A stretch of 64,000 bases of DNA. It comes from Isoetes taiwanensis (Eukaryota; Streptophyta; Lycopodiopsida; Isoetales; Isoetaceae). The stretch's first letter is position 1. The number at the start of each line of letters is the position of its first letter. The notes below the pieces were generated by a model. It searched no databases. It saw nothing but the letters and a program-made list of their open reading frames with translations, and had not been told where the DNA came from. A program made the translations under genes and the position numbers. The DNA lies in the NCBI GenBank assembly GCA_021234155.1, contig JAJEKV010000006.1, positions 186,001 to 250,000 of the forward strand. Direction: 5' to 3'. Below, one piece after another: positions 20,131 through 52,337 of this stretch.

Positions 20131-20164
20131 TTAGGCACATATAAAACAAGAGAACATTTGGCAA

Positions 20165-20929
20165 GTGCTGGAAAGAAAGGTAGATAATGCAGGAAATGAA
20201 ATCAGGGCTGATCTATGTGATCTAAGTGAAGTAAGTACCAATGACAAGATTGTGGATGCCTTAAAGGACGGTTTCAAGTATGCTCAAGCATTATGTGCTC
20301 AAGTAGGTATTACATGTGATAAAGAAGGCGCAGAAACATGGTGGGAAACACCATGGAAACATGAAGATTATTTTCATCGTGACTACTTCAAGCAGTTAGA
20401 CACTACACAAATTGAAGATGAATCTGATGTTGTTGAGATTGAAGAAGATAATACAAGTATAAGAGACAATAGTGCAAGTGAATCCCATGACATTGTGGCT
20501 GAGATGGAGCTTAGGCACACGTTTGAAGCCATGCTTGATGAGACTAAAAACTCGCATTCCCAAGTAGATAGAACCGTGAAGGTAGACGGTAAACTAGTAT
20601 GCAAGGCCACTTTAGTGAGCCAGCTTAATGGCAATCCTTGGTTGTCAAAAGATAGATTGACAAAAGTTAAACATCATGCTTTTCTTGATGCAAATTCGAA
20701 GGTAGTAAATGCAGCAACTTCACTTGGAATAGGTTCTGATTGTGCAGTTTATTTTGAGAATGATGAGGAGTTAAGCAAAAGAATGCGTGGTGGTGGAAGA
20801 GAGCAGCAGAAGAGCTTGGTTTGTAGCGGGCTTCACGTAGCGGGCTTCACGGCTATGGCCGGGCTATGGCGGTGGATGCAGAGGCAGCCTCCAAAACGCA
20901 GATGTTTTTCCACGACCCCCTTTTTTTAG
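20165..20929 (+). other. Uncharacterised 254-codon open frame, possible exon of a TE or host gene
   Basis: A long open frame starts after a possible acceptor (GGTTAG near 20132) and reads in frame from AHIKQENIWQVLERK. It has an acidic serine-rich middle (IEDESDVVEIEEDN, about residue 85) and a conserved-looking segment ATLVSQLNGNPWLSKDRLTK near residue 150. There is no ATG at the apparent start, so it may be an internal exon. The last ~40 codons run into a GC-rich duplicated motif (GTAGCGGGCTTCAC twice at 20823-20850) and then a dispersed repeat, so the natural C-terminus is probably lost. I do not recognise the family. Confidence 0.35.
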
Positions 20930-25239: not shown

Positions 25240-28200
25240 CTCGAGAATATGCAGCATAGTGACAGGGGTTCCATTTGTATTTTTATACGTTCTCGGATAT
25301 TGTGGGTTAGCGGTATATTCGAGTGGATGTACTAATGCAATACATTTAGAATGCGCATATTCCTTTTCTCCTGCTCCTTGACATGCAACGCTCGAGTGGA
25401 TCCAAGATAGGATTTAGTGTTCCGATAGAAGACCTAATCCAGATAGGGTTTGGCATTTCTGAAATGAGAAGTTCTAGACATTTATTCAAAATCTTGCCCA
25501 ATTTGAAGGTAAAAAGAGAGAAAAGAGATGGTATCAAAGCCAATTGCTCCAAAATTTGCATTATCATAAGATTTTTAGACAGATCTTTTGATAGATAGAA
25601 GGGGAGTTGTCCCATAAGAAAATATATGATTATAGTAGCTATTTGGCCATATTTATCTATGGCACATTTGTCATTTCCATCATCTATGCCAGAGTCAAAA
25701 GGGAAATGAACTACCGACTTTCTGATGAACTTTTTTCTCAAAATTGGCATTAGGTTCTTACATCAAATGTATCACGTGAGTAGAATGGACAAATTATGTT
25801 CAAAGCATAATGCATCCAACTTGGATGCATATGTTTAAAGATGCTAAAATATTATTTCTAAGTAAAAAGGCAAGTGTTCTTACTACAATCACGCAAACTG
25901 CAAGTCTAGCCAAAACTTATGGAATAACCATTAAATTTGCAAGGATTTGCAATTCAATATTAAAGGGTCCTTAAATAGTACTATACACAAAATTCTAAGA
26001 CTAGAGCACAACATCATCCAAAAACACATATGAATGCTTTGGTCATGCTTCAATCTATGAATTAGATTGGGGTTCACTATTTGGAGCAAAAACACTCATT
26101 GCCATTTGTATCTTAGGATAACGTGTTAGAAAATTGATGTGCAGAGAATTTGGTAGGGACACTAGATCAATAGTAGGGGTGCAATTATTTGATTATGATG
26201 GCATCTTCAAGTATAAAGTCATGGTATCAAGTATTCTATTTTTGATTGATTGTGAAAACATGACTTTCAACTATGATTTAAGCCACTTCATCCTCCGGCC
26301 ATGGAGGGCAACCCTCCGTGCGCAGCACCTTGTTTTTTTTTGCTTTTTTTTAATCCCTATTTTTTCCTCAGAAAGGTACGTGTCGTCTTCAGAAATAAGC
26401 ATCATAAAAGAATATCCTAAAGGCATATTTGTATGAGAGTTATATATGTTAGATACTAAGGTTTTGCTATTTTGATAATGAGTCGCCTTCAACACATGGA
26501 CATTGTAACGTATTCTTGTACATTAAGTAAACTTTACGTGATAATGCACATGGCCATATCATCCTCCTTATTAAAAACAAATGCACCATCTTTTATTATT
26601 CAAATATAGGAAGATTATAATAATCTTGACGTAAGTGAATTGTCGTGGATTAGAGACTCTGGTTTTTTTGTCTCATGAAAACAAGGCATAGATACCACTC
26701 TAAGGACAATGATTTGATTATAAACCCCATTTTTATAGTTGTTAGGCTTGTCCTTGGTGTTTTCAAACAAATATGAGGGAGATGCTACTTTTAAGGGAAT
26801 GCTAATGAATCATTTCAAACGCATTTGAGGACCATGCTCTGTTCTATGGCTTTTAAATAAGCACATGCTTTCATAAATTGCTGAGGAAGTAACTTACTTT
26901 CATTTTCATTTTTCTGTCTGCATTCTTTCGAAGCTCTTCAAGCAAGGGCCATAACAATGTCAAATTGAAGTCCAACCTCATTAATCTGTTCATGGACACC
27001 TCTATCTTGATGTATGGCACCTAGATTGCATTTTCAAAATGCGAAAGAAAGTAAAATTTTCAGGATGTCGTTGGTGTTCAGTAAGATCAATACCTTATCT
27101 GATCATTCCCTGTTACATTTCTTAAGGTGATAGCATGGCAATTTGCTTAAAACTTACCAATACCCGTTCTAGCCACTCCAGCAGTCCAACTTGCATTATA
27201 CAGGAAGTTCATATTCAATGCATCCACCCAATAGTCAAATGACTTTAAGAAAACTATGTATAAAAAGATTCAAGGAAAGACATAGCTAATATAAGATAAG
27301 ATAAGATGAATTTTTACGTCCACGGGAACCCAACGGGTTATGGGACGGCATCTTTCAGTAACGGAATCCATAAACACAGTGGTGTGGTCCCAGATGCAAA
27401 GACTGCACTAATCAAAATGTCATCTATTGCATGAGAGTTATGCTTGAAATAGAAAAATGATAGGGGCATTGACAGATGCAATCATGCACTCTGCAGACCC
27501 ATCTTAGAGGTTATATAGGATGCCTACAAGCTAGCTCAAAGCTATCCTTCAGTTCATGAATAGATGCATACAAAGATAAGATGCAGCATATTGGTTTCCC
27601 ATGTTAAACTATACAATGACTTTGTTCAGGCTGTATTAAGCACTTCATTCTGTTTCACATAAATTACATATAATATCCTCCAATAATTTGAACCAACCTG
27701 CAACAAACAGTTGATAGCGGCCCTTCCTAAAGAAGTAACATTTTGCAAATGCGATTCCTTCTCGCGATCTTCATGTATGCTCTGCTACATCATATAATCA
27801 TATCAGATTCTGTGAACAACATATCTCATAATGCTTAAATTTACTAGTCCTTCTAATTAGAGCTATATACATTCTTTGTTCCAAATCAAGGACTTGTGAT
27901 AACTATGCCAATTACTGGATAACTATTCCAATTACTGGATAACTATCCTACTGGAGACACCTACATGATGTTCTGCCCCAAGGTTATATATGTACACGAC
28001 TCTTCTCCTATAACAATAAGAACGTGAAATAATTTATTACCTCTGTAGAAAGGTGAGACCACCTAAAAGAGTATTTCCAGGCAAAGCACAATGTCTGGAG
28101 TTCCTGTTATTTGAGTACCTACCATGTTTGCGACAGTTCTTCTATCTGGCAGCCTCAGGGATCTATATAGTTTTGCATTGTAGATGATGCTGAGGGATAG

Positions 28201-28360
28201 ATTTCCATTTTGGAGTTTCATGTGTTCATATAGCAACTATATGTTAAAGAGAGGGATTTGTCCAGAGTGAATCATATGAAGAGGGAAATGCAAAATGTTC
28301 GCATTTCCCATCAAATGCAAACATCAACAGCTTCTAATACTCTGACATCTCCCGGATGCA
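25240..28360. other. Intergenic, one SINE/LINE tail, no supported gene
   Basis: The minus-strand open frame 25346-25750 (134 codons) has no recognised family or splice sites. At 27283-27345, the inverse of CCCGTTGGGTTCCCGTGGAC then GTAAAAATTC and (TCTTA)n is a short copy of the LINE/SINE tail also seen at 10.3 and 44.8 kb. A small palindrome GGAGGGCAACCCTCC lies near 26307. Confidence 0.5.
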
Positions 28361-28366
28361 GACAGG

Positions 28367-28442
28367 GATTCTTTACCATCACAATTTTACCAGTAATACG
28401 GCGTGATTCTTTGCCATCACAACTTTATCAGTAATAAGGCGT
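28367..28442. repeat. 38-bp tandem duplication
   Basis: The unit GATTCTTTACCATCACAATT...GGCGT is present at 28367-28404 and 28405-28442 with a few substitutions. Confidence 0.85.
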
Positions 28443-28839
28443 AGGGGTACATCACTTGTATGGATGTCAGGGTGAGATACCCATATAAAACATTGGCCAT
28501 AAGCAAGAAGTGATGCCTCATCTAAACATCGCAATAAACACCTGCCTGATGGTTAAGTTGGGACTTGCAAATGAATTTGTTGAATTTGTTTTTTGCAAGT
28601 TGCTATAGAATGTATTTTTTGACATGTAGAACGTATTTTTTAAATGCTGCCCATAGGAAGGCTTAACATGTAAGATAAAGTTTGTTTTGGAAAATGCATC
28701 TTTTTGTGAACATGATGTAAATTGGCGAATGCATGCTCAATCAATACCCTATTATAAAACTTACCTTGTTCAATCAATACAGTATTACAAAACTACATTC
28801 CATTGAATAGGAAGTGAAAGTATTGATGGCACTTGTAAG

Positions 28840-28990
28840 TGTTAGAGGCACTTGTGTGTTTAGCAAAGGAGTTAGTGTTCCCTAATCAAAAGCCTCCAAG
28901 CACGCATGTTCGTAGTGTTAGGAGGCACTTGTGTGTTTAGCAAAGGAGTCATTGTCCCCTAATCAAAAGCCTCTGCATTGCTCCCTAATC
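28840..28990. repeat. Tandem duplication around TGTGTGTTTAGCAAAGGAGT
   Basis: GGCACTTGTGTGTTTAGCAA with AGGAGT and CCCTAATCAAAAGCCTC occurs near 28853-28890 and 28925-28972. A third partial unit CTCCCTAATCAAAGGCTCTG follows. Confidence 0.8.
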
Positions 28991-30294
28991 AAAGGCTCTG
29001 CATTATGCCATCAAGCCTTGACAATACTATCTCATTGTCTCTGTGCCAAAATCTAGGCAGGTTATAACCAGGACAACAGAGGACAAATGATGCCATGGTA
29101 TAAAAATGTTTCTTCTCCTAAAACCAAGGGGAAAAATGTAATTCTGAATAAGATTTAAGAAAATGTGATAGTTATACCACATATAAAATCTTGATGTGAT
29201 TTTATATTATAATACAAAAAGAAAAACGATTTTGTAAGCTATCCAGGTAGTTCTGAAACATTCTGGAAGATTTTTAATGTAGTTCTTTGCAGAAATGCAG
29301 CAAATGAGGCACACATTTGGCTACAACTTATCATAGAGTTATAAGTTAGATAGATAGTTTGCACAACAACTGATATGGAGTTCAAGAAATACCTTCTACA
29401 ATGTTAGACTCTTTTGAAAAAAAGACACTTTAATAAAAGGCTATGCAGGTTGAGTTCCAAATAAAAAGAGCTTCGTAAATGCTAGCCGTAATCATCCTAA
29501 GGCTTGGAATAGTTCTGATGCAGCATGATGAGCAATATGCCTTGATTATTATGTATGGAGATGAGATGAAAATGCCACCATGTATTTCCATGCAATAATG
29601 GTGCTTCTGAAGCATTGTAATCTATAAAAATTAAAATGTTGCTTCTACTTGACAAATTTGAAAAACTTTTATATTCAGGATGTAGAAGTATAAAAATTAC
29701 AATGTCACCTCTACTACAAATTTGAAAAACTTCTAAATTCAGGAGGTAAAAGAATTATGCCTGCAAACAAATCTGTTGCACATCCTCAACAAAATAATGG
29801 CCTTCAATATTCATGCGAGGGAACTCTGATGGTTGCATGGAGTATTCATGCAAGGAAAAACTGAAGTGTAAATAAATAGGCAGATTTGATAAATAAATAG
29901 GCTTCGCATGTAATGGCGCTCTTCAAAAGTCGATCAAATGGATCCTAATAATGGATGGAAAAAAACACAACTCTAAATAACGCTTTAACTTCATATGAAA
30001 CACTGGGTGGATTTACAAAAGAAAGCGAGGCATACAAAACTTTGACACATCCACAGGCTTAGAACAGAGATTTGAAGATATACCTGCAACCGAAATTGTA
30101 TCCCTCCTAACTGATGGAGAATCCTTGAACTGAACTCCATAAAAAGTTTCATTGACATAGATGTGCAGAATTTCATCCTTTCCAACATAGCATGTAGACA
30201 AACAACCTCATAGCTTATTGTCAATCAAATTGTCCATCCAAATCTAAAATGGAAATAACAAGTCAATCTCTGAACTTACTGCAAGAAAATTTAC
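28991..30294. other. No confident gene; one tandem duplication
   Basis: At 29620-29755 a unit of about 68 bp (core CAAATTTGAAAAACTT) is present twice. An exon-like minus-strand stretch at 30060-30200 ([20 protein letters not shown]) could belong to the neighbouring gene remnant, but I do not recognise it. Confidence 0.4.
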
Positions 30295-31165
30295 CCTATT
30301 TAAATCCATTCCAATATCTGGTGTTTCTGGCATATTTATTGCATCCAGTACTACACTATGGGTGATATGAAGAGACTGATTCCTGGAGGATGCTCCACCT
30401 GAATCCACTGATTGCGAGGCTGTAAAACAAAAGGTCAAACGGGTGAGATAAAGTATACATGTATCATCAACAAGGCAAACATTGCTTCAAAATTAATGCA
30501 AACATTAAATTTTTCACAAAATAGTAGATGTGATCAATAAATAAAGCATCACTTTAGGGTTGGTTTTATAACATTAGCAGAAATTTCAGGAAGATATTTT
30601 TTAAAATGAACAATTAATCTTCCTAAACTAAGCACAACGTTCTCTATTCCACAAAATGTAACAACAGCTCCAATCTCTCAGTGTCGGTGTAGCAAATGAG
30701 ATAAATAAAAAAGTGCAACATGGTGCTTTTTATAATTAAAACAATATTCTCCAACTTCCTGTATTCCAAAAGCTGCCTTTATGTAAAAAGATAGCCAGCA
30801 CAACATCTTTATCAGATCCATAGACTGCAGCCTTCTAGATGGGACATCCATATCTATAGAATATATAAAAATCTAGCCTGAAGCAGTGGTATGGCATGGA
30901 GGAACAATATTCTCATTCTGACCCTATAGGTCATCAGATCCTTTGAGATTCACTTATAATGAAACAGATGATAAGCTACAGAAGCGGCTTTATTAGATGG
31001 TGTTGCCGTCTTGTGCGATGCATGACAAAAGATGCTAGCATAGGCTAAAATATTATGCTCTAAAATATTACTGCAAATATACATCAAAAGCGTATTTAAC
31101 AGCCATATTTTCTCATGCATACCTTATTGTAGGAATTGGCCTTGCAACCAGGTGCAGCGTGTGTC
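30295..31165 (-). pseudogene. Ubiquitin-like/BAG6-type protein remnant
   Basis: The exon at about 31165-31123 encodes VEDGHTLHLVARPIP. This is the end of a ubiquitin-like domain typical of BAG6/Scythe-like and ubiquilin-like quality-control proteins (VEDGHTLHLV block). The exon at 30419-30295, with TTTACAG acceptor and GTAAAT donor, encodes SLHITHSVVLDAINMPETPD and GMDLNR, similar to the segment that follows in plant BAG6-like proteins. The ubiquitin-like exon is out of frame with the sequence upstream (GFLNEEQ is in another frame), and its phase does not fit the next exon. I therefore treat the locus as decayed. The family call rests on short matches. Confidence 0.4.
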
Positions 31166-31296
31166 CATCCTCAACATCTGTTCTTCATTAAGAAATCCAC
31201 GAATTGGAGTGCTGAGCTTTCCTCAAATAGTGCAATTGCTTAAATAAGTAGGCAGAGCACATATCAAAATAGAATATCAGCTTTAAGAATACAAAC

Positions 31297-31470
31297 CTCG
31301 TGGAATCATGCTCATCACCAAGGAAGCAAAACAAATGGAAAGACAGCAACATTGGTCTCTACACGAAGCCAGTCCGCAGCACTTTCAATAAGATGCTCTG
31401 CCCTGGAAGCAGAGCTTCCATACTTGTGCACGGCAACAACCAGATGGAGAAGGAACAAAGACGAAGTGCA
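31297..31470 (-). pseudogene. ThrE-like (threonine/serine exporter N-terminal domain) fragment
   Basis: The minus-strand frame encodes HKYGSSASRAEHLIESAADW then LRVETNVAVFPFVLL. This resembles the first conserved block of the ThrE/DUF1212 family, a membrane protein family of proposed amino-acid exporters. GDEHDSTR, the expected continuation, is present (31319-31297) but in the next frame, just after PW-stop. A GT donor follows at 31296. A single frame change therefore breaks the exon. The membrane part of the protein is not found here. The call is based on motif resemblance only. Confidence 0.4.
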
Positions 31471-31479
31471 CCACTTGGA

Positions 31480-32130
31480 CAAACAAATAGCACTCCATAA
31501 ATTAAGGGTTGTGTTTACTGGAAATACCACAAAGAGAATTAAAGAGGATCTGAATACCATTTTGCAGAGCTCCAACAAATGCAGAGAGCTTAGCCCACTG
31601 GGACAAACTCAAATCTTCCTAACACCAAAACACATTAATAGCGCCACTGATACGAAATATATCCAAAAGCTTTCAATCAAAAAAACCCTGCCTCGTGGAG
31701 ATAAACCATCTCAGAAAATCCTTTAGGAAATCGTCACCAAATCCATCAACGAATCAATTTCTGGTCTACAAAAAACTCTGATTTGCTATAATGTAGCCGG
31801 ATTGATGTTTCGCCTCCGTGAAGATAAGAGAAAAAGGAGGTTAGGGACTTATTTTTCAAAAAATCCGAGACGATGAGCTTCGAAAATGGTGAATCCAGCA
31901 TGAAAGCTTCTGGTTTCCGCTTGCAATACCCTTCTTTGAAAATCTGCGTACCTGCTCCAATGATTCCTGTGACTTTGTCTGCTGCGATCAATACTTCCCT
32001 GATCCTTCTTTTTGAGAAAACCATGTGCGATTCATCTTCAGCAGCTTGGCGAGCCAGAAACAAAACACTGGCGAAAACACAGAGCCAGTTAGGCGGTTCA
32101 AACATCGCCCCCAGCAAAAGGGGTGACCGC
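31480..32130 (-). other. Open but unassigned sequence upstream of the ThrE-like fragment
   Basis: A 159-codon minus-strand frame (32225-31746) reads through FSKRRIREVLIAADKVTGII and GTQIFKEGYCKRKPEAFML. It has a protein-like composition, but I cannot assign it. Its start lies inside the dispersed repeat at 32130-32260. It may be a further exon of a decayed gene. Confidence 0.3.
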
Positions 32131-32260
32131 CAGTTTGCCAGTAGCAAATTTCTAGCAGTTTTTTTTTCATACTCTAAGAATATACTGGCATATATCAAGA
32201 ATATGCTGAAAACCCATACAAGCAAGGAATTGCCCCTCTAGGGGCAACCCAAAAATTTGA
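32130..32260 (-). repeat. Dispersed repeat with CCCC(TAGA)GGGG palindrome, copy B
   Basis: On the minus strand it reads GGGTTGCCCCTAGAGGGGCA, then CTTGCTTGTATGGGTTTT and ATATGCCAGTATATTCTTAG, matching copy A at 20920-21060. Confidence 0.65.
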
Positions 32261-32864
32261 TTTAACCTTACAAGATATAGGATGCCAAACCCTCAAAAGG
32301 AAGGTTGTGGTCTTCTCCCATCGATGATTATTAGGCACTCCATTCCGACAGAACTGATCATCATTAAGTTTTCCCAATTTGTTTCGTATTGGGGAAGGGA
32401 TTTTTGGCAATGGTTTGTAATATGATTCCTATTTTGTATTGTATGCAACGTTGTATATTTAGCAGTGTTTTTAGCTGCTTGTTTGATTATGTTCAGTTAT
32501 TGCTATTTGTGGCCAGCTTGAGTTCGTGGGTGTGCAATGGTTCGAAGAGGGAAACATTGTTTGACAAATTGGGAAGGAATGGAAGTGGGGACACGATGAT
32601 CCTTGCTGAAGGGCATGCCGCCTGTGTCGGGAAGGCTGTGTGCATCCCCCGGATCGTCAGTGCGGGAGCGTCTAGGTGAGGAAGTTCGCCTCATGTTTGT
32701 CTCTGTTTTTGTATTGCTTTTGCATAGTGTAGGCAACAAACAGGTATAGCGGGCAGAAGGTGAGAGTTCTGGGGCGTGAGGTTGTAATTAGGACATAATG
32801 TTGTTCAAGGGGGATGCAAGACTGAATGTGAAGGTCTAGAAGATGCCTGTGTCCATGAGCAGGC

Positions 32865-34320
32865 GTGAATCGATGCCTGCATACCTTGGATGATCGGGGC
32901 TTGAGGCATGAATCTAACAGGGCAGGAGAAATGAGGCAGCGGAGGGCTAGAGATGGAGGAACGCCTGTGACATGGGCTGATGGTCTTGTGGGAGCTGGGG
33001 AGGGCCAATTTGAGGTGGAGAGGGATGGTGGCCAGATTCCGGGCAGCCAAGTTGATGATGCAGCTCCTGCATGGAGAGGGATCTTGCATGTTGTGTTCGA
33101 GGATAGAATTGGTTCCTTGTTTCCGAGGTCTTCTATTGAGGGGTTTAGTGATTGGAGGAGCAAGAGGGGAAGGGGAGGAAGAAATTGTGGAATAGGGAGC
33201 AAGTTTGGGCCTATGAATTGTATCACAAAGTTTGTGGGGTGTCATCTTGTACTGGATGTGGAAAAACAGTATGTGAATACTATTTCTATCATAGGAAGGA
33301 GTGACAAGCATGGAAGGGGAAGGGGGAGACGAGGACTGAGCATCTTTGAAGAATATGTTGGAGTGGATATTTATGGGAGTGGCGGTGAGGAAGTAGTGGA
33401 AATGCCAATCTTCTTTGATGTGCATGTGACAGTCGTATTTGGTGGTTGTGATGTGCCTGTGGCACTGTATGACAGGATGATCGAGTCCTTGAAACAAAAC
33501 TGTATAGCTGGAGTAGTGGCTTTGGAAAGGGGTTCCTCGTTTGATCACTAACACGTGCAATCTGTCATGCAGTTGGACGCAAAGATGCCTTCTAGCGTAA
33601 ACGTGAGAATCAAGAATTTCTTGGGATGGAACCAGAATAAGCCTGCAGGTGCTATGATTCTTTGTAAGGCACTTCGTGGAAGCAAGTTACATTGCTTTGA
33701 GGGCATTGTGGGGTATTGCATGAAAGATATGGGCAAGCTGCACTTCAAAGTGCACTTGCATAATGTAACAGCAGAGCAGATCAATGTGGGGAAGGAACTA
33801 TATGCTTTGTATGGTGCTGGTGAGATCAAGCACCTTATTATGCTGGATAACAGAAATCTTTTAGCTAGAGCCTTCCACTTTGTGCTTTATCACGCGAACA
33901 AATTTAGAACTGCATCACGCATCCATATCATGAAGTGCATGCTGCAGACATGCAAATTTAGATTGTGCAGCTCATGGGTTCTTCCTAATAATTCTGCTTA
34001 CATTTCCTTGGAGAGAGTGCACAGTGCAGGCAGCTTGGAGAATAATGTTGGGGTCTAAGTGCTACACCAGATGTGAGGATGGCCCTAATTGGCAGCCAGC
34101 GGGTGTTGCTCCCGTGCAGCATGTAGGAAAGAGGAGAGAGCGCTACTGGGATGTAGCAGGCATCTTTGAGGATGGTGAGGAGAGTGGGGAGAGAGGAAAC
34201 AGTGCCGATGAATTTGTGTTTGCAAGTGATGGAGTGCATCCCTCGCCTCCAGAAATCCCTGATCCGAATGCCTCTTTCATTCTGCTAGACATACATGATG
34301 ATGCTTTTGATGCCTTTTGA
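32865..34320 (+). pseudogene. Rep-type HUH endonuclease (Replitron-like or CRESS-Rep-like), nearly intact
   Basis: Rep-type HUH enzymes nick single-stranded DNA with a catalytic tyrosine and start rolling-circle replication or transposition. One frame runs from 32865 (first ATG 32931) to 34058 with a single TAA at 33549-33551. It holds motif 1, FDVHVTVVF (33414-33440); motif 2, HVQSV (33552 onward, directly after the stop and preceded by another His); and motif 3, GYCMKD, with Tyr at 33714 and Lys at 33723. Motif spacing (about 45 and 53 residues) suits a Rep HUH domain. After motif 3 the frame reads SWVLPNNSAYISLERVHS, then shifts by one near 34030 and continues to 34320. The N-terminus is Gly/Arg-rich. 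I see no superfamily-3 or Helitron helicase, and only one catalytic tyrosine. Those traits fit Replitron transposases; a virus-derived Rep cannot be excluded. Confidence 0.6.
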
Positions 34321-34377
34321 TGTAGTTGCCTGACCTGTTTGTATTCTATTTGCATGTTTGATGTTGCTATAGGAGAA

Positions 34378-34764
34378 ATTGATGGTGGAGGGCAAGAGAG
34401 GAGGGAGCGGAAGATCATAGTTATTAGTGATAGCTCTCAGGAGTTCCGAGTCCAGAGAGCATTTTGCTGTGGAATGTGAGGAGATAGAAGGGAAGGTTGA
34501 TTTCATGTTGGCTTTGGGAGAGGAAGAGAAGACGTTTGTATGACCATTCAAGAACTGCGTGAAGCGCTGACCCACACACTGGACCGCATAGAGAATGGCT
34601 TCGACACCTTGCAGCTTCATGGAATGGTTGAGGAGGGTGCTCTTCGTTCTCACCTCAATTTGTGTAGAGCGCTCCTCCTGAATGAGCTCCGAGAACTAGA
34701 GGCCACACGTCGCCGTCACGATCCCACCATGGCTTCTTCCAGCAAGAGAAAGGCGCGGGAGTAG
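34378..34764 (+). other. Possible C-terminal part of the HUH-Rep gene, basic tail
   Basis: The frame 34540-34764 encodes a predicted helical segment (TIQELREALTHTLDRIENGF) and ends in SSSKRKARE, a nuclear-localisation-like tail. Upstream, 34378-34440 (ERKIIVISDSSQEF) follows a possible acceptor (GCTATAG) after an intron-like stretch starting GTAGTT at 34321. These may be later exons of the Rep gene or a second small protein of the same element. No homology recognised. Confidence 0.35.
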
Positions 34765-34769
34765 GTAGC

Positions 34770-35590
34770 ATTTTGTGCATGTCTTTTGTGTGTGAATGGA
34801 TGTACAAACTTGTATGTGAATGGATGTACAGACCTGTGTATGTGGTCTCATAGTAAAATTTCAGCTAGGTATGTTTTGAATGTGTATTTGCAGTGACATA
34901 ATCTAATATAAATGTTGATTTGAGGAATGTGTGGCCAATGGTTGTTTGTGGCCGATCTGCACCATTGTGATTTGCAAGGGTTCATGAGGAAAAAAATCAG
35001 AGACCTTTGATTTGGCATAATGCCGAGAATATTCTTCCTATCTACGGCTGAAACAAAACTTCAAAACATCCCATAAAGAATCAAACATACACAAATTCCG
35101 AATCAAACATACGCAAATTCCTGCCTTTTACACTTTAACAATGTCTGTTTATTCAAAATTCTAGTTGTGCCCCCTTCGTGGTTTCTACACCCACAATGCA
35201 AAGTGATTCTTATAGACATTCCCTACTCCGAACTTTTAAAGCCCAGCAAACTTTTGAAACTATCCAAATTCGACCTTCTCAAGTTGAAAATCTAATTTCT
35301 AAGAATCCTCTTTTACATATTTCTTGGAACAGAATAGCTTGATCAATTAAGAACAATTTATTGTCCATAAGTCTTCACAAAAACTCTATGATGTACATTT
35401 CATGGTGCAAACATGTAAAATAATTCACAAACGATACAAAAAAACTAATCCCACCTGGGATTCATGCAGGACAATGCCCGAAAGAATATGTGCATAAGAC
35501 AGACAGCTACACAGACCTAAATAGGAGCACAAGTGTCCTCTGGCAATTACATCTCGATAATTCTTTCTCTAGAGAAAGATAGGCAGCTGC
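34770..35590. other. Spacer between the HUH locus and the SH3P gene
   Basis: A 24-bp unit with GTGAATGGATGTACA is repeated at about 34792 and 34817. The minus-strand AATAAA at 35362-35357 is a candidate poly(A) signal for the SH3P gene. Nothing else. Confidence 0.5.
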
Positions 35591-35597
35591 AGCTAGC

Positions 35598-37954
35598 CTA
35601 GATAGCAGCACCTGCGTCTGCAACTTTACTTGCAAGTACACGTTGACGGCGTTCCACGTAAGAGGAAGGAAACCAACCAGCTTTACCCTTGCATTCCCCT
35701 TCTGACCAACCAGTTTCAGAAACCTACCAGTTATAAGAACACTGTAAGATATAACAGAAATAGCAGTATAACGTTGCAACATATCATGTTCATAAAATCA
35801 CTTGATAAACCACCTGGCGGACGACAACATAATCGCCAATTGCCAAACTAAGTTCTCCTTCAGTTTCAGCATCAAATGCATGGATAACCTGCCAAGATAC
35901 ACAAATTCACCTGTCACCACTAGACCCAATGCCAATTGACATGGAACATTACCCTAATTACCTCAGCCAGAAAATACATGGATTTCTGTAGGGCATTTGG
36001 ACCAGGTGCATGTGTTCCATTTGTAATTCCAGATTCCTCATAGGATGGTGGAGACATAAAATGGTCACCATTTCCAGAGATTGGCAAGGTCTCACTCCGC
36101 TGACGTTCCAAAACCATCTGATACAAACCAATTTGTAATTTTTGTTCCAGGGTATGACTCCATTAATGATCTGGAAGCCTTACCTGTGCATGCACCTGGT
36201 CAAAAACCTCTGCCACTCGTTGATGGAAAGCCCTTTCAGCTTCGACCTAAAAGAATGTAGGCAATTGAAATATTCAATGCAGGTCAGGAAAGCAGTTGCT
36301 TAATATTTTGGTGCATTCATCAATGCCTAATGTCTAGATAGTTGTGTTTGTCCACATTAAGATTCAATGTATGTATAGGCAGCAGCATCCTACATATGCA
36401 AAAGGTGCATGTAATATATTGCCCATGAGAGAGAAAGGACAGGCACCATTGAAATAATCCTTTGTAAAGTAAGTCTTTGCTGCTGTGCTTCGACTGCAGA
36501 CATTGCGGCCGCTGCTTCCTTTCCTAAAACTGCCATAGATGATGTTAACTCGTTGAGTTTTGCCTCGGCTACTTGCATCTTTACAGTATTCTCTGCACTT
36601 CCACCAGCTTCCCTTGATCTTGCCTGCCTTCTTCCAACCTCTTGAGCCTAACTTTTGCAATGTAAGTCAATATGAAAATTAGAGTTCTAAATATAAGTAA
36701 TAACATAAAAAGAACATCCTTAATAGACTTCCTGTTTAGGTAATACCATGAAGCTTTCCACATTTCATGGGAATCTAAAGTAAAGTTTTTGCATCCTTGA
36801 ATTAAAAACATAATAGCCAATGACATACGACCAACAATCAGAGCTTCAGTCACCTGAGCTTCGGCTTCTTGGCGTAAACGATCATAGCGTTGGGTCAAAT
36901 GTCTAGCATCTTCTAATGGCGCCCCCATGACCATAGCACGTAAAGGTTCCGCAACCTGATTAAGAGAAGGTATTCCAGTGTTACAAACTTGCTAGAGAAA
37001 AATAAATTCCAATGCTTTGAACATCATGAAACACACAAGCAGACATAAAACCATGTCACTAAACCATGTTATGCATTTTGCATGAGACAATCTAGCCATT
37101 GCACACGATGCGATTCCTTTTGAGCCTGGGTATTCATAAGCTTCACCTGGATTTGTAACCATTGAATTCTCTTGTCCATAATATAATAAAATGTGAATAA
37201 CAAACAGAAAGCTCTGTTGTTCCACTAATGGGGGCTGCATCTTAACTATGGTATGCTCATTTATCAATACCGAGCTACTTGCTTTAGACTTGCCTGTGTG
37301 CCCATAGCTCGATGCAAGTTCTCTCTTTCTTTTTCCACTTGGCCCCGTGCATTGCCATAACATATTGCAGCTTTGGCAAGAGCACCGTTGGCACCAGGAC
37401 TTTCGGTTGCATATTTTCGGCAGTCCTCAGCAAGCTTTGTTCCTGACATCAGTTTATACACTTTCGTTCAGAACACATAACATGTGCGGAGATTATAGCA
37501 AAAATACCAACCAACTTCAAGTTGTTTTGAGCCTGTTGTTATAAGACCTTCAACTCCTTTGACAATCTCCCTCTGAAAGTGCTGCAAAAACCAAGACAAA
37601 TAATTTATTTTTCCAACATTTTGGTCATTATCTTAGAGAATCAAATTAACACTTTATAAAACATTAAGCATTCCTGTATGTCAGACCTTGCCTGACCGGG
37701 TAGAGTTAAATAATCTTTCAAGTTGTTGATGCCTTTGAAGCTCTGCCTCGTCAGTGACTATAACATCATTCCCTTGAGGCCCTCCATGTCCTCTGAACTT
37801 CAGAACAGCCTATCATCCTCTACTTTCTTTAGGAACAGCATGGAACAATAAAACAAAGCACCAGAAGAGGAACATGGCAAACTAAATATACCTGCTGTTG
37901 TTGCTTAGCAACTTGTTCACGGAGTTTATTGGCTTGTTTCCTGAATGTCTCCAT
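35598..37954 (-). CDS. SH3 domain-containing BAR protein, SH3P1/SH3P2-like
   Basis: A plant BAR-SH3 adaptor that binds and bends membranes. Arabidopsis SH3P proteins act in clathrin-mediated trafficking, cell-plate formation and autophagosome formation. Coding exons (minus): 37954-37892, 37809-37687, 37581-37512, 37442-37294, 36955-36854, 36647-36447, 36246-36184, 36117-35962, 35888-35814, 35723-35598. All phases join without a stop, giving 1128 nt and 375 residues (Arabidopsis SH3P2 is about 368). The protein begins METFRKQANKLREQVAKQQQ. The BAR-like coiled region covers about residues 1-255 (EIVKGVEGLITTGSKQLEVG; VMGAPLEDARHLTQRYDRLR; AQQQRLTLQRIISM). A proline-containing linker has SPPSYEE. 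The SH3 domain lies at about 310-365 (AFDAETEGELSLAIGDYVVV, GWSEGECKGKAGWFP, SSYVERR). ATG 37954 is the first in the transcript after the 5'UTR intron. Intron 5 uses a GC donor. This is the only intact host gene here. Confidence 0.95.
36956..37293 (-). other. GC-AG intron of the SH3P gene
   Basis: Intron after residue 135 (GTQ|VAE). The donor is CAG|GCAAGT, a GC donor with otherwise perfect U1 complementarity; the acceptor is TTAATCAG. Both flanking exons are phase 0 and join in frame as AMGTQ-VAEPLRAM. No in-frame GT donor fits nearby. Confidence 0.85.
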
Positions 37955-37960
37955 ATTAAG

Positions 37961-38302
37961 CTAATGGATAAAGAAACATCAGTTTACGCAGATTTAAAGA
38001 ATCAGGCAATTGCTGGTATATTACATGAGGATTTCAAAATCGCAGAGAAAAGAAAAATGCAGCAAGCAAAAACTTAACAATGCTCTATAATATTTCTGTA
38101 TATTATCCATCGTGTTACAACTTACAATTGTTGGCATCAAGATCCATAAATCGGGAAAACTACTTGTAAGACAGAATGGAAACGACATGTAGTATCATTT
38201 GATCGGTACTTAAAAAAGAAGCAGAAGAAACTCTACCTGATAGTCTTTATGCTACTCCAACATTTCGAAAGTAAGAAGAGAGCGAATGGATCAGATCAAC
38301 AC
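37961..38302 (-). other. 5'UTR intron of the SH3P gene (inferred)
   Basis: On the minus strand the donor CTCAAG|GTGTTG (38302) and acceptor CCATTAG (37961-37967) bracket 342 bp, six bases upstream of the ATG. The leader exon would be about 38303-38400. This is inferred from splice consensus and from the lack of an in-frame upstream coding exon. Confidence 0.5.
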
Positions 38303-38394
38303 CTTGAGACGCAGAGCCAAACCTAAAGATTTATAGATCTGGCTATTCGAACTGCATTGGAGAGTCTAAATGTGAGGACAGAAGAGTCCACTTC

Positions 38395-38450
38395 TCTGTG
38401 GAAGGCGAAGAAATGAAGAAAGAGGGGGGAGAGAATGAGCCGTCTTGCGC
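38395..38450 (-). promoter_or_regulatory. Pyrimidine-patch core promoter region of SH3P (inferred)
   Basis: The minus strand reads CATTCTCTCCCCCCTCTTTC and TTCATTTCTTCGCC, a Y-patch typical of TATA-less plant core promoters, just upstream of the likely leader exon. No clear TATA box. Confidence 0.35.
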
Positions 38451-38459
38451 GTGGGTCCA

Positions 38460-39476
38460 ACGGTGGAGATGTGTTCAAGCATTCGCGATGATCTAGCCGT
38501 TGAAGGCGCGAGTTACCTTGTCGGAAGAGCCAAGAAATTTACAAAAGCCGACAATTTAGGTTAATGCTGGGTTCACAATTCCCATGGTTAATGCTGAACT
38601 TGGGCTGAGCCAAAAAAAATTCAGCCCCGTTATAAGAGTTCAGCTGTCGCATGATGCAACCCGCAATGTTGAGTCGGGCTGAAATATTATGCAGCATTGA
38701 GTAAGCTAGTTCTCAGCGCTGAAGGAAAAAAAACACCATGTGAATCGCCCATAAGCAACTTGGCCTAGCACCAAAACAAAAATAGAACTTTCAAATTCGA
38801 AATTGTAAACTTGTTATGAGGATCAACAAATCTAGATGCCATCTTTTAAAACCTCAACGCTCATTACTTATATAACACGCGAGAATTTTGGGAGTTTTGT
38901 AGTGGTTACCTTAATTCCTTATGTTCTTTGTCATCATCCCTTCTCCAAATCAGCACATACAATGAGGTGGATGCAGATGACCTCATATCTAGCCATTAAG
39001 GTCTGCAATTTGCTTTAGACTCAAATTGATCCATCAAACATTTGCAATCTGCTTTGGACCCAAATCGATCAATCAAACATAGCTAGATATACACCAATAG
39101 CTTAATACACATGCAACAAGCTGATGAGCAATTGTACTAAGGTTCTCTAGTGCAATTACAGATTTTTGTAAAAAATCGAACTTTATGCTACTTGGGGGCA
39201 TCTGATTCTAAAAAGTCATTACAAAATTGCAGACACCACTTGATCTTTCGTAAAGCGGCTTCAAAATCCAGTAAGAAAATATTAGAATAGCATATTTTGA
39301 CGGGAGATTACATAACTAAGAGTACTTAAGTTATTTAGTCATAAAATACAATAATATTATAACATTACATTTCAATTATATTGCAGATTTTTTTCAATTA
39401 TCAAAGGGGCGTCCTTCGGGCAAGGACTTCTTCATCCTCGAGTTCATTATCTGCATTATCCAGAGGAATTATGAGA
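38460..39476. other. No gene seen
   Basis: AT-rich spacer upstream of the SH3P promoter. A short duplicated piece (CAATTTGCTTTAGAC/CAATCTGCTTTGGAC with AAATTGATC/AAATCGATC) lies at about 39004-39070. Confidence 0.45.
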
Positions 39477-39478
39477 GG

Positions 39479-39632
39479 GATAACACCCTGGAACGAGGGT
39501 GTTATGCCCTACTATAACAAACAAGGGTGACCCTCGTTTATTATAGTAGGGAATAAGACCCTCCTTCCAGGGTGTTATCCGCCTTCGTTTATTATCGTAG
39601 GGCATAACACCCTCCTTCCAGGGTGTTATCCG
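39479..39632. repeat. Inverted repeat plus tandem copy (long hairpin)
   Basis: Arm 1 (39479-39518, GATAACACCCTGGAACGAGG then GTGTTATGCCCTACTATAA) is the inverse of arm 2 (39541-39580) with a few mismatches, across a 22-bp spacer. A further copy of arm 2 follows in tandem at 39591-39630, 50 bp on. Within each arm, AACACCCT...AGGGTGTT is itself palindromic. The motifs GTGTTAT and TAACACC recur to about 39778. Confidence 0.85.
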
Positions 39633-39639
39633 CCTTAAG

Positions 39640-40339
39640 AAACTGGGCTCGAGAGCTTTATGGTGGTTTTGTAGGGGTTTTATGATGGTTTCCATAACAC
39701 GCTAGGTGTTTATGGCCATTTGGCATAACAAACTAGGTGTTTATGGGCTTTTCAATGTGTTATTGGCGGGTAACACCATTGCAACCAACGGCTAAGATTT
39801 GATCTCAACTCTAAAACTTGAGGGTCAGGTTGTGAAGGAAGTATCATCTTCCACTGTGGGTTCTACCAACTTTTGGAGATCCTCAAGTAGAACAAGTTAG
39901 TAAGTAGGGTCCTTTGTATTCCATGTTAAAGGAGGTTGAACTTTGAAGCTTGTTGTCTTTGGAATGCCATCTGCCTCCTGTAAAAGCAAGTTCTTGATCT
40001 TCATCATGAAGACTTTGAAGAGGACACACTCTAGTCTTAATAAAAGCTACGTAATCCTTATCTAAGCCTATAGCAATGACGTTTCGGCCCTCTAAAATCG
40101 CATGTCAGGGTCATTCATGAACCAGATAACGCATCTACAATCCAATCTCCAGGTTGAGAGAACATTTCAATTAGTGTGTTGATTAGAGCTAAGCTAACAA
40201 TCCTCTTTCCATGAACGGGGTCATTTAGCTTCTGACATAGCTGGATACTGAAATGTGTTTCTCAAATTCATTGCAAATGTGTTGTAGTGCATAATGTTGC
40301 TTCTTCCTTCTAAGCTATAAATATCTAGCATAATTGCGA
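39640..40339. other. No gene seen
   Basis: Spacer with GTGTT/AACAC-rich short repeats to about 39780, then ordinary sequence up to the LINE start. Confidence 0.4.
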
Positions 40340-42562
40340 GCAGCAACATTTGAGTTGGCTTCAGATAAAGGATTGAGAATAGATGCGGCTCAGTCAGGCT
40401 TTCTTCCAGGTCGGCAAATTTTTCATAATATAGTGGCAGCATATGAAGGAGTTCATTGGGCCCAATGTTCAGGTCAAAATCTTCTATATTTAAAATTGGA
40501 TTTTGCTAAAGCTTGTGATAGTGTGAAGTGGACTTTCTTGGATGCTATGCTTTTGAAATTGGGATTTGGGTCTGGTTTCCGATCTATGATGCATAAAATG
40601 TTGATTTCTGCTAAGGGGGTAGTAATGTATCATGGAGAACCATTGGTGCTTTTTCCAATTGAACGTGGAATAAGGCAAGGTTGCCCTTTAGCTCCTTTTT
40701 TGTTTATTATAGTGGCAGAAGGACTTTCGCAACTATTGCATGAGGCTGAAAAGGATGGTTTGGTAAAGGGATTATTACTGGTGGAAGGTGAACAGGTTTT
40801 GGTTAATCAGTTTGCAGACGATACCTTCTTGCTAGTGGATGGTGAAGAGAATAATGTGCAGATAATCAAAAAGATTTTGGATATATTTTCAATTGCATCT
40901 GGTTGTCTCCTTAATTGGGCTAAGTGTAGTGCTTTATGGGTGGGGAAGGAAGCAGTTCCGCATTTTTTATATGAGTATGCCTGGAAGGTTGTTGTACCAT
41001 CTGCAAAGACAAAGCTTCTAGGAGTCCCCTTTGGTCTAGATATTGACATGAATGAAGCATGGGATGAAATTATCTTAAATTTACAAAGGCAACTGATTTG
41101 GTGGAGAGGTTCAAAGTTATCCTTGGCAGGTAGAATTCAAGTAGCTAAGTCAGTATTGAACAATACGCATATTTATTTGGTTTCGGTTCTATTGGCTCCA
41201 GCTTCTAAGTTTGCAGAGATAAAAAAGAGTGTAAGAGATTTTGTCTGGTGTACCGATCAAGGAGGCACTGTGAAGGTGGCGTGGAAGAAATGTAGGACTT
41301 GGTATGTTGGATCTTTCTTTACAGGGTAAGGTCTTAGCTTCTAAGCTATTGTTTAGTTTGTTGAAAGATGATTGTGCATCACCAGGTATGAAGTTACTTA
41401 AACAATCAGTAAAGAAGTGTATGGTTTTTCATAAGCGAGGTGTGAGAATTGAGCTCCCTTGGGCATTGTTATATCCATTGAAAGCTTATTCACATGCCTC
41501 TCCAGTACTGAAAGGCTTGCTTCGGGCCTGGAAGGTAGTCCAGCAGGTGATTACATTTGATTGGGAAGCTTGTCTCCAGGCATCTTCCCCCTTTCTGTGG
41601 TTGCCTTTGTATACCCATGGACAACTACACCCAGTTGTAGAATTTATGCATGCGCATTCCCAAGCGAGGTGGAGGAGAGCAAGTATTATTTCTATTGAAC
41701 AACGGTATTTTGGTATTGACATTGCTCCTTGGCAATGGTTTCAGGAGACATATGGGTTGTTGAATAAAGATATCAGTATATGGGCTTATGTAGCAAGTGC
41801 TCTTCCTCTAATTAAAAAGGTGGGTAACAAGAGATGCTGGAACTTTGTTCAAGGTATTAAAGAAGGCAAGAAGCTAGTAAGTTCATGCTACAGATTGCTT
41901 ACCTCCTCAAGTACTTTATCACCTTCTCGAAAATGGCACTTACAGACTTTGCCTTCTCAATGGCAATCTATCTGGAACCTTGTTTGGTCTAAATATAATC
42001 CTCCAAAGGTAAATGTTCTACTTTGGCAGGTGATTCATCGCTCATTGAGAGTTAATGAGATGGTTCATCGCTTTAAGCCGGGAGTAAGCCCACTTTGCCC
42101 AATGTGTGAGCGGTGCATTGAAATATTGGAGCACTGTTTATATTTGTGTGCAGAGCTGAGTAGTCTTAGGTCCTGGCTGCATTCTCTTTTTGGAGTATCT
42201 TTGGATAGTAAGCACTTTCTTTTGGGTATTTATCCAAATCAGTGGACTGCTTCTAAAAGGATTGCATTTCACATGGCAAAGTCTCGGCTAATATGGAGTG
42301 TATGGAAGCGAAGGCGAAGAAAGGTCTTTTATGATAAGCGTATTTCTTCTCAGGTGGTGCTTCAAGAAATTCGTAAGAAGTTGTATAATTGCTTTCAGAT
42401 CTCCAATTGGCCTGATCGTATTAAAATTCCAATATGGAGTGATCATGTAAAAGTGATTGATGCTTCAGGGACATTTCTTACTTCTGGAAGTACTTTGTAA
42501 TATTTTGAGTGTATAATATGAAGTAAAACACGTTCTTAAAAAAAAAAAAAAAAAAAAAAAGG
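40340..42562 (+). pseudogene. 5'-truncated L1-type LINE (RT and C-terminal part of ORF2) with poly(A)
   Basis: The frame 40334-41329 encodes the RT core: QSGFLPGRQIFHNIVAAYEG, LDFAKACDSVKW, GIRQGCPLAPFLF and the catalytic QFADDTF block. A one-base frame change near 41300 leads into 41304-42500. That frame has GMLDLSLQGKVLASKLL and the zf-RVT zinc-binding region (SPLCPMCERCIEILEHCLYL), ending in a TAA. A poly(A) of about 20 follows at 42539-42560. Endonuclease and ORF1 are absent, so the insertion is truncated at the start of RT block 2, as expected from incomplete target-primed reverse transcription. It is related to, but clearly diverged from, the fuller copy at 49.4-56.2 kb. Confidence 0.85.
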
Positions 42563-48620: not shown

Positions 48621-49452
48621 TTTTCTATCAATGTCTGATTTGAATGGGGCTGCCTATCAATGTCTGATTTGAATGGGGCTACCTCTCCCCCTTGCGATTG
48701 CCTGCTCCTGCTCGAACTCTGCCACTTTCCAGAACTCTGGATCATCTAGCTCTTCAGTGGAGCTTTCAAAATATTTTGTTGTCTTCTATAGCACCTCTCA
48801 GATTTGCTGTGGGTGGCTTGAAGGAACCCCTGCTGATATCTGGGCCTTCTTGGTGGATGAAACGGTTTTCCCTGAGATCTTCTTTGTAGGAGAACACTCC
48901 CATCCCTCCATCTGCTGATACGGTGGAATTTCGAATCGCTTATCTTGGTGCAGATAGACCACCTATTGCTAAGTTCTTCCTATTCTCTGAAGCCTTCTCT
49001 GATCACATCACTTTGGAGCTCTACAAGTCTCCCTGATGCGGTCTAAGTATGGAGTTCCTTGTCTTCTCTTCTGAATCAAGCCCTCCAGCCTCTCAAGCTT
49101 CAGCTACTTCTTCTATTTTTTCCATTCCATCGTCTTTCTCGCTTGATATTTCAACCATCACCTGGTCTATCATTCTCGTGAACACAGATTATATTTGGTG
49201 GGGATACATTGAGGGCCCAATATTGCAGCTTTGGGGTTCTATAATCGATCGAAGGTTGTTGCAGCAGGAGTTTTTCTCTTGTGTGGGTGGCTTTGCAATA
49301 CGTGGAGCTGATCCAGCATTTGTGCGAAGACTAGTCCGACTTTTGATCTTCAGTAACGTGGAAACAGAGCCTACTCAATCTTTTCTGGTGCATTGCCCCT
49401 GGCTTAACAATTCCTACTACTGGTTGGAGACATATTTTTGAGCAGGACCTCT

Positions 49453-51039
49453 ATGGAGCCTGCATTGTCTGCTGGGAATGTGGAAGCCAATATATGCCTG
49501 GATATGGATGAGCAGACTTATATTTCCCTGCATATTCCCGAGGTGGCGAACCGGATTCGTCACCTTGATAATCAGGCTCTTATTGCCAAAATTATAAGGG
49601 GTAACCCGTCTTTAGCTGAGATTAAGAAGACCTTTGAGCGTGTATGTCGTGGCAGATTCCTACCTCGGATCCAGCCGTTGGGAAACTTATACTTTCTCAT
49701 CATCCTGCAAACTGAAAAGGAAGCCCAGCTTCTTTTCAAGAAGGGGATAATCACTTGTCTTAATGGCCAAGTTTTGCTGCAAAAGTGGAGACCGGACTTC
49801 AATTCCAAAAAGCCTGATGCTTTGTTCTACCCAATATGGCTGTCACTCTCTAATCTTAGTGCAGAATACTGGACAGAGAAAGCTTTCAAAGCCATTGCTT
49901 CCTATCTTGGGGAGTACGTGTGCATGGGTGGGAACACCTCAGAGGCCCCAAAGATTTGCATCACTGTTGATATTCTAAAACTACTTCCACGTTCTGTCTT
50001 CTTCAAGGGATTTAACAATACTTTAATAGAGTTTATTCTCTCTATCTCTGGTCTTCCCTTCCCCTGTTCTGGTTGTGGAGCCAGGGTGCATGCTGGGGAC
50101 ATATGTTCAGACCTCTCTCCAGTGAGTCCAGTCCTTGAGCACAACGAATCTCGCACTCAGGGCGAGAATAGTCTGGCCCCTAGTATTGATTCTGAAGGGT
50201 TCACTGTAATTAACCCCAAAAAGTCTGCCAGGAAGCAGACCGTTGCTGCTGTTGCCCCAGACTATGGGGGAGAGTGCTCCTTGAAGGCCTGCCCAACGCC
50301 TTCCCCTGTTCCAGTGAAAAAGCTTCTTGACTCAGCTTTGGAACCTCCTTTGCCTCCAGAGGCCCTCTGGTGTAATAACAGGTTTAGCCCTCTTGTCCTT
50401 GCTGATAGTGAACCCATTGAAGAAGGCTGGCTGCCTGGTTTGGCAGCTCCTCCAGATTCTGCAGCAGAGAACCCAAAAGAGCATGTTGGCTCCGTTAGTT
50501 GACCCCAACTCAATGAGGAAGCCTGTCTCACATCGCCCAAGGCTAAGCAACTCAACAATGCTCGTTTGATCCAAGATCTTTTCTTCAATACCTCCAAGCT
50601 CCATTGTGATGGTCCTAGCCTGGTCTACGATGATTCTGAAGCTCCGGAGACTCTGATCAATCATGTTCCCATTCCTGCAGTACACACAAACCCCTTGGTT
50701 GCAGATCCTATGGATCAAGTTAATATTGCTGCTTCTGGCAGCCCCGAAGAAGCTCTGTCTGCTCTTAAGACTAAGATCAATCATGATCTTATTCCAGCAC
50801 CCATTCCAGCAGGGTACACAAATCTCTTGGTTGCAGATCATTCTGATCAAGCAAATGTCGTTGGCAACAATATTTCTGTGGTTAAGAAACTGAATGGGAA
50901 AAAGAAAGGGAAAGATAATGGGATTAAATCGGGCAAGTACACTTTTGAAGCAGCAGTAGCAAAAGTATGCTTGGAGCATTCTATGGAGCAAGGATGCATG
51001 GTTCTCCCGGCAAACAAGGATGGAAATACTCCTCTCTAA
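49453..51039 (+). pseudogene. L1 ORF1 (DUF4283 plus CCHC zinc knuckle), one internal stop
   Basis: Plant L1 ORF1 proteins bind the element RNA. The DUF4283-like region (about residues 20-180) includes RFLPRIQPLGNLYFLIILQT, GQVLLQKWRPDF and PIWLSLSNLSAEYWTEKA. A perfect CX2CX4HX4C knuckle follows, CSGCGARVHAGDIC, with C205, C208, H213 and C218 counted from the ATG at 49453. The tail has a Lys-rich patch (LNGKKKGKDNGIKSGK). The frame is closed by a single TGA at 50500-50502 but continues open in the same frame to 51039. Start choice: the first ATG in the frame; upstream in-frame codons lack Met. Confidence 0.85.
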
Positions 51040-51206
51040 AGATGTTGATGGAAGCTTCTTTCAAGTTTTTTGTTGTTCTTCCTAGTCTTATGGTTATTCT
51101 GTTTCTCTACCACAGGCTCATGCCTGTTTTGTATCAAGACTATTTTGTAAGGCAGTTTGTATAAGGCAGGCTTTTATATCAAATGGTTTACAGTTGACTC
51201 TATTAA

Positions 51207-52337
51207 ATGCTCAATATGTTCCAACTCTTTGTGAAGATTTTTGACTGTAAGGCTCTCTTTATTATGGTCATGACAGATATATGGTTGATGCAAAGATTGC
51301 TATTTCCTGCTAGTTGTATGTGGTCTGGAGCATCCTGGTTCCCATTCTATCTGCAAAACATAGCATTCAGCTTTGTAGACTTCTATGGAAAACCCTCGGT
51401 GTGGTGGTGGAGGTCTCAATGTAATGCATTCCGGTTGCATGCAAACAGGTTAAAAGCTCTCCTCTCAGGTCGTAACATCATGGGTGGTTTTGCCGTCCCA
51501 TGCTCAACCAATTTGCCTTATGGTTGCCCTTGGGATGATCAAAGCAAATATTTCTATCTCTCCTTCTATTCTAACAATATCATTATGTGGCTGAGTCCTA
51601 TCTCTTTGGTGGGAGATATGCTGTCCCCTAGTAATAATATCACTGAGATATTTCATGCTCGGCTCAATGTTATGTGGATGGGTCCTATCTTTTTGATGGG
51701 GGGTAATATCACTGACATATCTCATGCTCGTCTCAAAGTTATATGGTTGGGTTATATCTTTCTGTTGGGGGGAAAGGATGACAACTCAATGCCTTACGGT
51801 GGAGTTTTACATTCCACGTGTCTTCTCACTTTGAATATCAGGCTGGTTCTGTCACCCATATGGAGGCTCCTAAGATATTCCAACAACAGCGACATATGGA
51901 AGGTGTCGCCCCTATGGGATACCTTGGCATTTCTTTGCACTTTGGAATTTCCTCATAAAAGGTCAAAGAAGTGCCCATTATCATACTCCTCCTCTCTATA
52001 TACGATGGAAGCTATCAAGGGGGGGTTCCATATAGTTTTCCGTATTTCCAGAAGGGTTCCCCCCTTTTGGAGTAAAATGGCACTCTTTCCATTATGGGCC
52101 TATTGGGATACCTCGAGTTGCCCCTTTTCAGCTTATCTAAAGGGGCTCATATGCAAAGGAACACCCCATAAACATTTACCCTCCTTTGTTTCCAAAGTCT
52201 TACCTCCCCCAATGAGGGTATCTCCTAGGTGTTGTCCCACTTGGTACCTGGTGAAAAGGGGTGCAGAGGGGGAACATAATTACATCTCTGTACTTAAGGT
52301 CGGAAGATTACCTATAGTCATAACCACTTCGAGATGA
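51207..52337 (+). CDS. Middle ORF of the L1 element, unknown function
   Basis: A 376-codon open frame lies between ORF1 and ORF2 and ends in TGA at 52335-52337. ORF2 starts with the overlapping ATG at 52334 (ATGA), a layout that suits termination-reinitiation. The product is rich in Trp, Phe and Leu (NAFRLHANRLKALLSGRN; LCTLEFPHKRSKKCPLSYSS). Residues about 127-192 contain three diverged tandem units (NITEIFHARLNVMWMGPIFL, NITDISHARLKVIWLGYIFL). Such a length without a stop is unlikely by chance in this base composition. I know no family for it. Plant L1s usually have only two ORFs, so it may be a clade-specific protein, a captured sequence, or a repeat-driven open frame. Confidence 0.5.
   Translation: MLNMFQLFVKIFDCKALFIMVMTDIWLMQRLLFPASCMWSGASWFPFYLQNIAFSFVDFYGKPSVWWWRSQCNAFRLHANRLKALLSGRNIMGGFAVPCSTNLPYGCPWDDQSKYFYLSFYSNNIIMWLSPISLVGDMLSPSNNITEIFHARLNVMWMGPIFLMGGNITDISHARLKVIWLGYIFLLGGKDDNSMPYGGVLHSTCLLTLNIRLVLSPIWRLLRYSNNSDIWKVSPLWDTLAFLCTLEFPHKRSKKCPLSYSSSLYTMEAIKGGFHIVFRISRRVPPFWSKMALFPLWAYWDTSSCPFSAYLKGLICKGTPHKHLPSFVSKVLPPPMRVSPRCCPTWYLVKRGAEGEHNYISVLKVGRLPIVITTSR

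Follow-up and report, generated by a model that had tools for sequence, protein, structure and literature searches.

The window analyzed here is the whole 64,000-nucleotide stretch of the Isoetes taiwanensis contig given above, and all unprefixed coordinates refer to it; L numbers denote Replitron loci retrieved from the same genome. The plus strand carries a broken transposase gene enclosed by short terminal motifs, with the following features:

32364–35078, plus strand: whole Replitron copy, about 2.7 kb (from homology limits in other copies).
32364–32368, plus strand: 5′ terminal motif TTAAG (from the aligned 5′ ends of the window copy, L050, L042 and the extended L041).
32798–34314, plus strand: first exon of the transposase gene, broken, with the N-terminal region, HUH domain and C-terminal region (tblastn with the frames of relatives).
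33414–33440, plus strand: motif 1, FDVHVTVVF.
33426–33803, plus strand: Replitron_HUH domain with a Rep-type fold (positions 2–127 of the 128 in PF21859; Pfam E 6.9e-18).
33546–33554, plus strand: motif 2, the H-x-H metal-binding motif, with a stop codon as its middle position.
33714–33728, plus strand: motif 3, YCMKD, with the putative single catalytic tyrosine.
34373–34764, plus strand: conserved second exon or ORF, frame-broken in its first half, with an IIVISDSS stretch, a further conserved region and a basic tail.
35074–35078, plus strand: 3′ terminal motif TAAAG, following ACATCCCA (from the aligned 3′ ends).

As the first-pass annotation had noticed, the three motifs lie in one long frame (32859–34058, plus strand), in which the window ORF analysis finds a single in-frame stop (33549–33551) and which is followed by a +1 frame ending at 34320. 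The tyrosine of motif 3 (33714–33716) is invariant, together with the C, K and D of the motif, in the window copy and the database proteins P0002 and P0003. Read through with an X at the stop (P0001), the frame scored 65.7 bits with PF21859, the cut-off of which is 28.5. The part downstream of the stop matched Replitron_HUH by itself (E 4e-10), and the part upstream of it gave no Pfam match; the two E-values put the likeness well beyond chance. Replitron_HUH was the only Pfam family in the HUH frame, which bears out the earlier description of a Replitron-like HUH Rep protein, and no helicase family was detected by Pfam in the scanned window frames or in the proteins of L031, L039 and L040, again in agreement with that description. 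The second Replitron family, Replitron_C, was not recognized in the Pfam scans of the window copy, L031 and L039, and reached only E 0.16 in L040, under the cut-off. It is present together with Replitron_HUH in P0002, to which the window copy is 35% identical across 195 aligned positions. P0002 and P0003 were the only relatives found in the protein searches, one of which scored 7992 candidates, those sharing most words with the query. A sequence search of solved structures gave one insignificant match (E 1.4), and Rfam at gathering thresholds gave none.

Elsewhere in the window, remains of L1-like LINEs with reverse transcriptase, endonuclease and DUF4283 domains (Pfam) occupy 40334–41329 and 49408–55813, a 264-codon open frame at 20135–20929 (plus strand) has no Pfam match at E 1, and a 103-base palindrome (39478–39580) overlaps a 51-base unit repeated twice (39534–39636).

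The extent of the gene was delineated by tblastn with the frames of relatives, which align at 32798–32869 and 32871–34028 (two frames), at 34024–34314 (a third) and at 34363–34755, with 51–79% identity to the window first exon over the main segments. The coding region begins at about 32798, upstream of the start given previously. A splice-acceptor-like AG end lies upstream of the second exon in all five sequences compared (window, L043, L041, L040 and L031), and an intron between the two exons is therefore likely. Neither the second exon or ORF nor its relatives passed any Pfam cut-off; we take its IIVISDSS stretch to resemble a SUMO-interaction pattern. In the first exon of the window copy, the reading frame is interrupted by a stop in the N-terminal region and by the one within the HUH motif, and it shifts near 32870 and again near 34024; in exon 2, the frame is scrambled over the first half. 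The locus had been described as nearly intact, with one stop and one frame change, a count that does not survive comparison with the frames of relatives. Because exon 1 is interrupted by two stops and changes frame twice, and exon 2 has a scrambled stretch, the window copy is a pseudogene, which presumably can no longer make protein.

The limits of homology with other copies placed the ends, which the first-pass annotation had not found, at about 32364 and 35078, giving an element of about 2715 bases. The 5′ homology limit falls at 32363/32364 in three copies (L042, L050 and the extended L041), and L051 and L052 are without the 5′ part, their homology beginning only near 32791–32798. The 3′ limit falls at 35072–35084 in several rows of the DNA search and in L050, L051, L052 and L043. 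The aligned ends read TTAAGTTT at the 5′ side and CCCATAAAG or CCCATTAAG at the 3′ side (window, L050, L043, L046 and L051). The terminal motifs of the window copy, TTAAG and TAAAG, are in direct orientation and differ by one base; the 3′ motif is TTAAG in L050, which has this motif at both ends, and in L043, and is absent from L040 and L052. In the window copy, the two ends are not linked by an inverted repeat, and a target-site duplication could be discerned neither there nor at L050.

Two observations concern sequences at element ends. A 22-base tandem duplication (35078–35121) begins right at the 3′ end of the window copy, and L043 and L044 have similar small tandem duplications next to an end of an element. 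In L043, an element of ~960 bases with Replitron-like ends (about 249–1213) lies inside another Replitron copy; the corresponding empty site is found in the right copy of L042, and TACGA stands on both sides of the insertion, with extra bases 3′. Likeness to the window is confined to the two termini of this element, which is thus apparently without a transposase gene.

We searched the genome (1,658,258,908 bases in 1110 contigs) for further members of the family. All 150 matches scored, of 2165 candidates, passed the Replitron_HUH cut-off, and 141 of them have no stop inside the match, the other nine having one. Judged by these profile matches, Replitrons are abundant in the I. taiwanensis genome. 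The 30 loci fetched represent several distinct lineages; the nearest to the window among them is L023 (69% across 962 bases), whose extended form, L031, includes a 568-codon frame from stop to stop. The DNA search revealed copies nearer than L023, up to 75–82% alike over 0.5–2 kb. In other lineages, palindromes of ~280–300 bases lie downstream of the Replitron genes (L024:2809–3109, L037:2860–3142 and L038:3809–4090), and that of L037 and L038 seems inherited because it lies inside a stretch common to both copies. A palindrome in L016 was rejected as a 3′ feature, since the gene there reads in the opposite direction and the palindrome is on its 5′ side.

Substitutions between the window copy and the frames of three relatives, for which dS was saturated in several comparisons, are concentrated at third codon positions: the counts at positions 1/2/3 are 28/14/91 over 172 codons of the HUH frame against L040, 55/35/131 over 233 codons of the HUH frame against L031, and 20/8/38 over 76 codons of ORF2 against L041. 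This bias in both frames is a mark of purifying selection between lineages, and might be read as the trace of a host gene domesticated from a Replitron. The window copy, however, has several frame breaks, and the selection is common to dispersed copies, as expected if the elements decayed only after a period of activity; we consider domestication very improbable.

The fold was modeled from a 238-residue piece (P0004), read under NCBI table 6 and aligned with the two database relatives. The prediction is built on three sequences and one of its five models stands out, with a mean pLDDT of 59.3 and a pTM of 0.56, the other four having a mean pLDDT of 43.4–47.2. Its blocks within residues 41–170 average 65–91, and residues 1–36 and 174–238 are below 50. 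The predicted structure has the strand and helix order of Rep HUH domains, including the five-stranded sheet whose absence would have told against the first-pass reading, with the tyrosine (Y139) inside a helix, so that by this model the window protein is of the Rep-type HUH fold. Among solved structures, the model came closest to a circovirus Rep domain (7kij; TM-score by target 0.64, E 1.5e-4); next in the PDB ranking was the DNA-binding domain of papillomavirus E1. Many of the 50 matches listed in BFVD are nameless, and the named ones are mostly CRESS-type Reps or parvovirus nonstructural proteins.

The closeness of the model to the Rep domains of circoviruses and other CRESS viruses, along with the shared motif order, is what would be seen if a CRESS-type viral Rep gene had been endogenized and fixed in the plant genome, an alternative that the first-pass annotation had left standing. 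Replitrons are themselves structurally near CRESS Reps, and the PDB and BFVD likenesses agree with this relationship. In CRESS Reps, a superfamily 3 helicase follows the HUH domain; the window copy, in contrast, has no helicase family, and its sole HUH-frame family is Replitron_HUH. Viral contigs scanned with a two-sequence profile yielded 22 pattern matches, none of which was confirmed, and the part downstream of the stop, used as a tblastn query, found no match in phage records. The transposon-like ends and the many relatives in the genome likewise argue against a viral gene, and we give this origin hardly any credence.

Because Replitron_HUH is the only family found, no helicase accompanies it, the terminal motifs are direct, the length fits and the element is multicopy, the feature is a Replitron and not a CRESS Rep. 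The profile match, the model, the aligned ends and the genome search establish the family, fold, ends and copy number of the window Replitron. Replitrons are eukaryotic DNA transposons with a single-tyrosine HUH endonuclease as their one recognized enzyme, and we are highly confident that the window copy is a degenerate descendant of an autonomous element of this kind, located on a nuclear contig of I. taiwanensis. By analogy with the HUH superfamily and with earlier Replitron work, the HUH enzyme of intact copies would introduce a nick in one strand at the TTAAG-like short direct terminal motif, forming a 5′-phosphotyrosine link to the DNA, and the replicated single strand would be moved to a new site in a copy-and-paste manner.

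Replitrons are expected to carry the Replitron_C domain as well. Helitrons, the other eukaryotic transposons with an HUH endonuclease considered here, combine the Rep domain with a helicase and usually have two tyrosines, whereas neither a helicase nor a second tyrosine is seen in the window copy. With Replitrons, the founding paper on which is reportedly that of Craig (2023, PNAS e2301424120), the window copy shares the Replitron_HUH domain, the one tyrosine, the 5-bp direct terminal motif, its 2.7 kb length and its multicopy presence in a non-seed plant. The lineage of the window copy differs in that its scanned members lack Replitron_C at the Pfam cut-off, in its conserved second exon or ORF with the IIVISDSS-like stretch and basic tail, and in the tail-to-tail inverted pairs formed by some relatives. 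A review (PMC10741241) lists Replitrons in lycophytes and gives them direct terminal repeats of 5–11 bp without terminal inverted repeats, a length of 0.9–4 kb and target-site duplications of 2–8 bp. The window copy is an ordinary member of a group already reported in lycophytes, and the ends and the conserved second exon are now given for one of its lineages.

The arrangement of the relatives was analyzed with a DNA search using window 32400–35200 as the query, which returned 67 rows (40 scored of 521 candidates) that were chained into 47 copies, and neighboring pairs within 5 kb were counted. Ten of the 13 pairs were convergent (tail-to-tail), two divergent and one same-strand, a convergent excess with a binomial p of 1.3e-4 against an expectation of one-quarter; the same-strand row comes from a single copy that is broken (L042), the two divergent rows involve small pieces at alike-built places on contigs C1026 and C112 that are possibly duplicates of each other, and two of the convergent rows are small pieces on the same two contigs and one a 97-base fragment, leaving seven substantial pairs. 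The seven loci that carry such long inverted arms are as follows:

L039, L040, L041 and L044–L047 (genome G000, contigs C1078, C1028, C907, C996, C1031, C1045 and C952): inverted arms of about 1.4–2.7 kb.

In six of the seven substantial pairs (L040, L041 and L044–L047), the arms are 84–95% alike and the centers differ; the seventh, L042, is patchier. In L039, which belongs to another lineage, the 1.68-kb arms are 97% alike. The centers of the inverted pairs lie at or short of the 3′ end and vary by locus, and the outer 5′ ends are often unequal. L039 is the only one of the nine loci with longer flanks (L031–L039) to contain an inverted gene copy, the other eight having none. The 30 short loci show none either, yet they include L028, the short form of L039, and are therefore too short to tell. 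For the window copy, no inverted partner lies within 28000–42000.

The two arms of a pair could arise together, if rolling-circle synthesis reached the 3′ end and continued by snap-back copying to give an inverted dimer, or by separate tail-to-tail insertions. In a first tree (~1 kb), the arms of L041, L044, L046 and L047 fall apart. In the tree of a longer alignment, the arms are joined in L040 (99/97) and L045 (100/100) and weakly in L047 (78/73), and joining them is not rejected for L041 (p 0.159), L044 (p 0.154) and L046 (p 0.0907). Only two of the ten branches of this tree are starred, each uniting both arms of one locus (L040 and L045). Separate insertion may account for some of the pairs: in L042, the right arm resembles L043 at 94.3% but the left arm of the same locus at 86.5%, and in L043 the small mirror piece reaches only 70% likeness to the opposite side, so that snap-back copying as the source of all inverted pairs was rejected. 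Because the arms are firmly sisters in two of the six pairs tested (L040 and L045), snap-back copying near the 3′ end is suggested as the favored reading for part of the inverted pairs. That the Replitrons of I. taiwanensis repeatedly yield inverted dimers in this way, with the junction at or close to the 3′ ends, is a tentative proposal, which we hold to be somewhat doubtful. If it is true, a single-tyrosine HUH transposon can give rise to long palindromic insertions carrying a convergent pair of transposase genes, and the mirror-image pairs, if they are products of transposition, would provide a handle on how Replitron replication ends.
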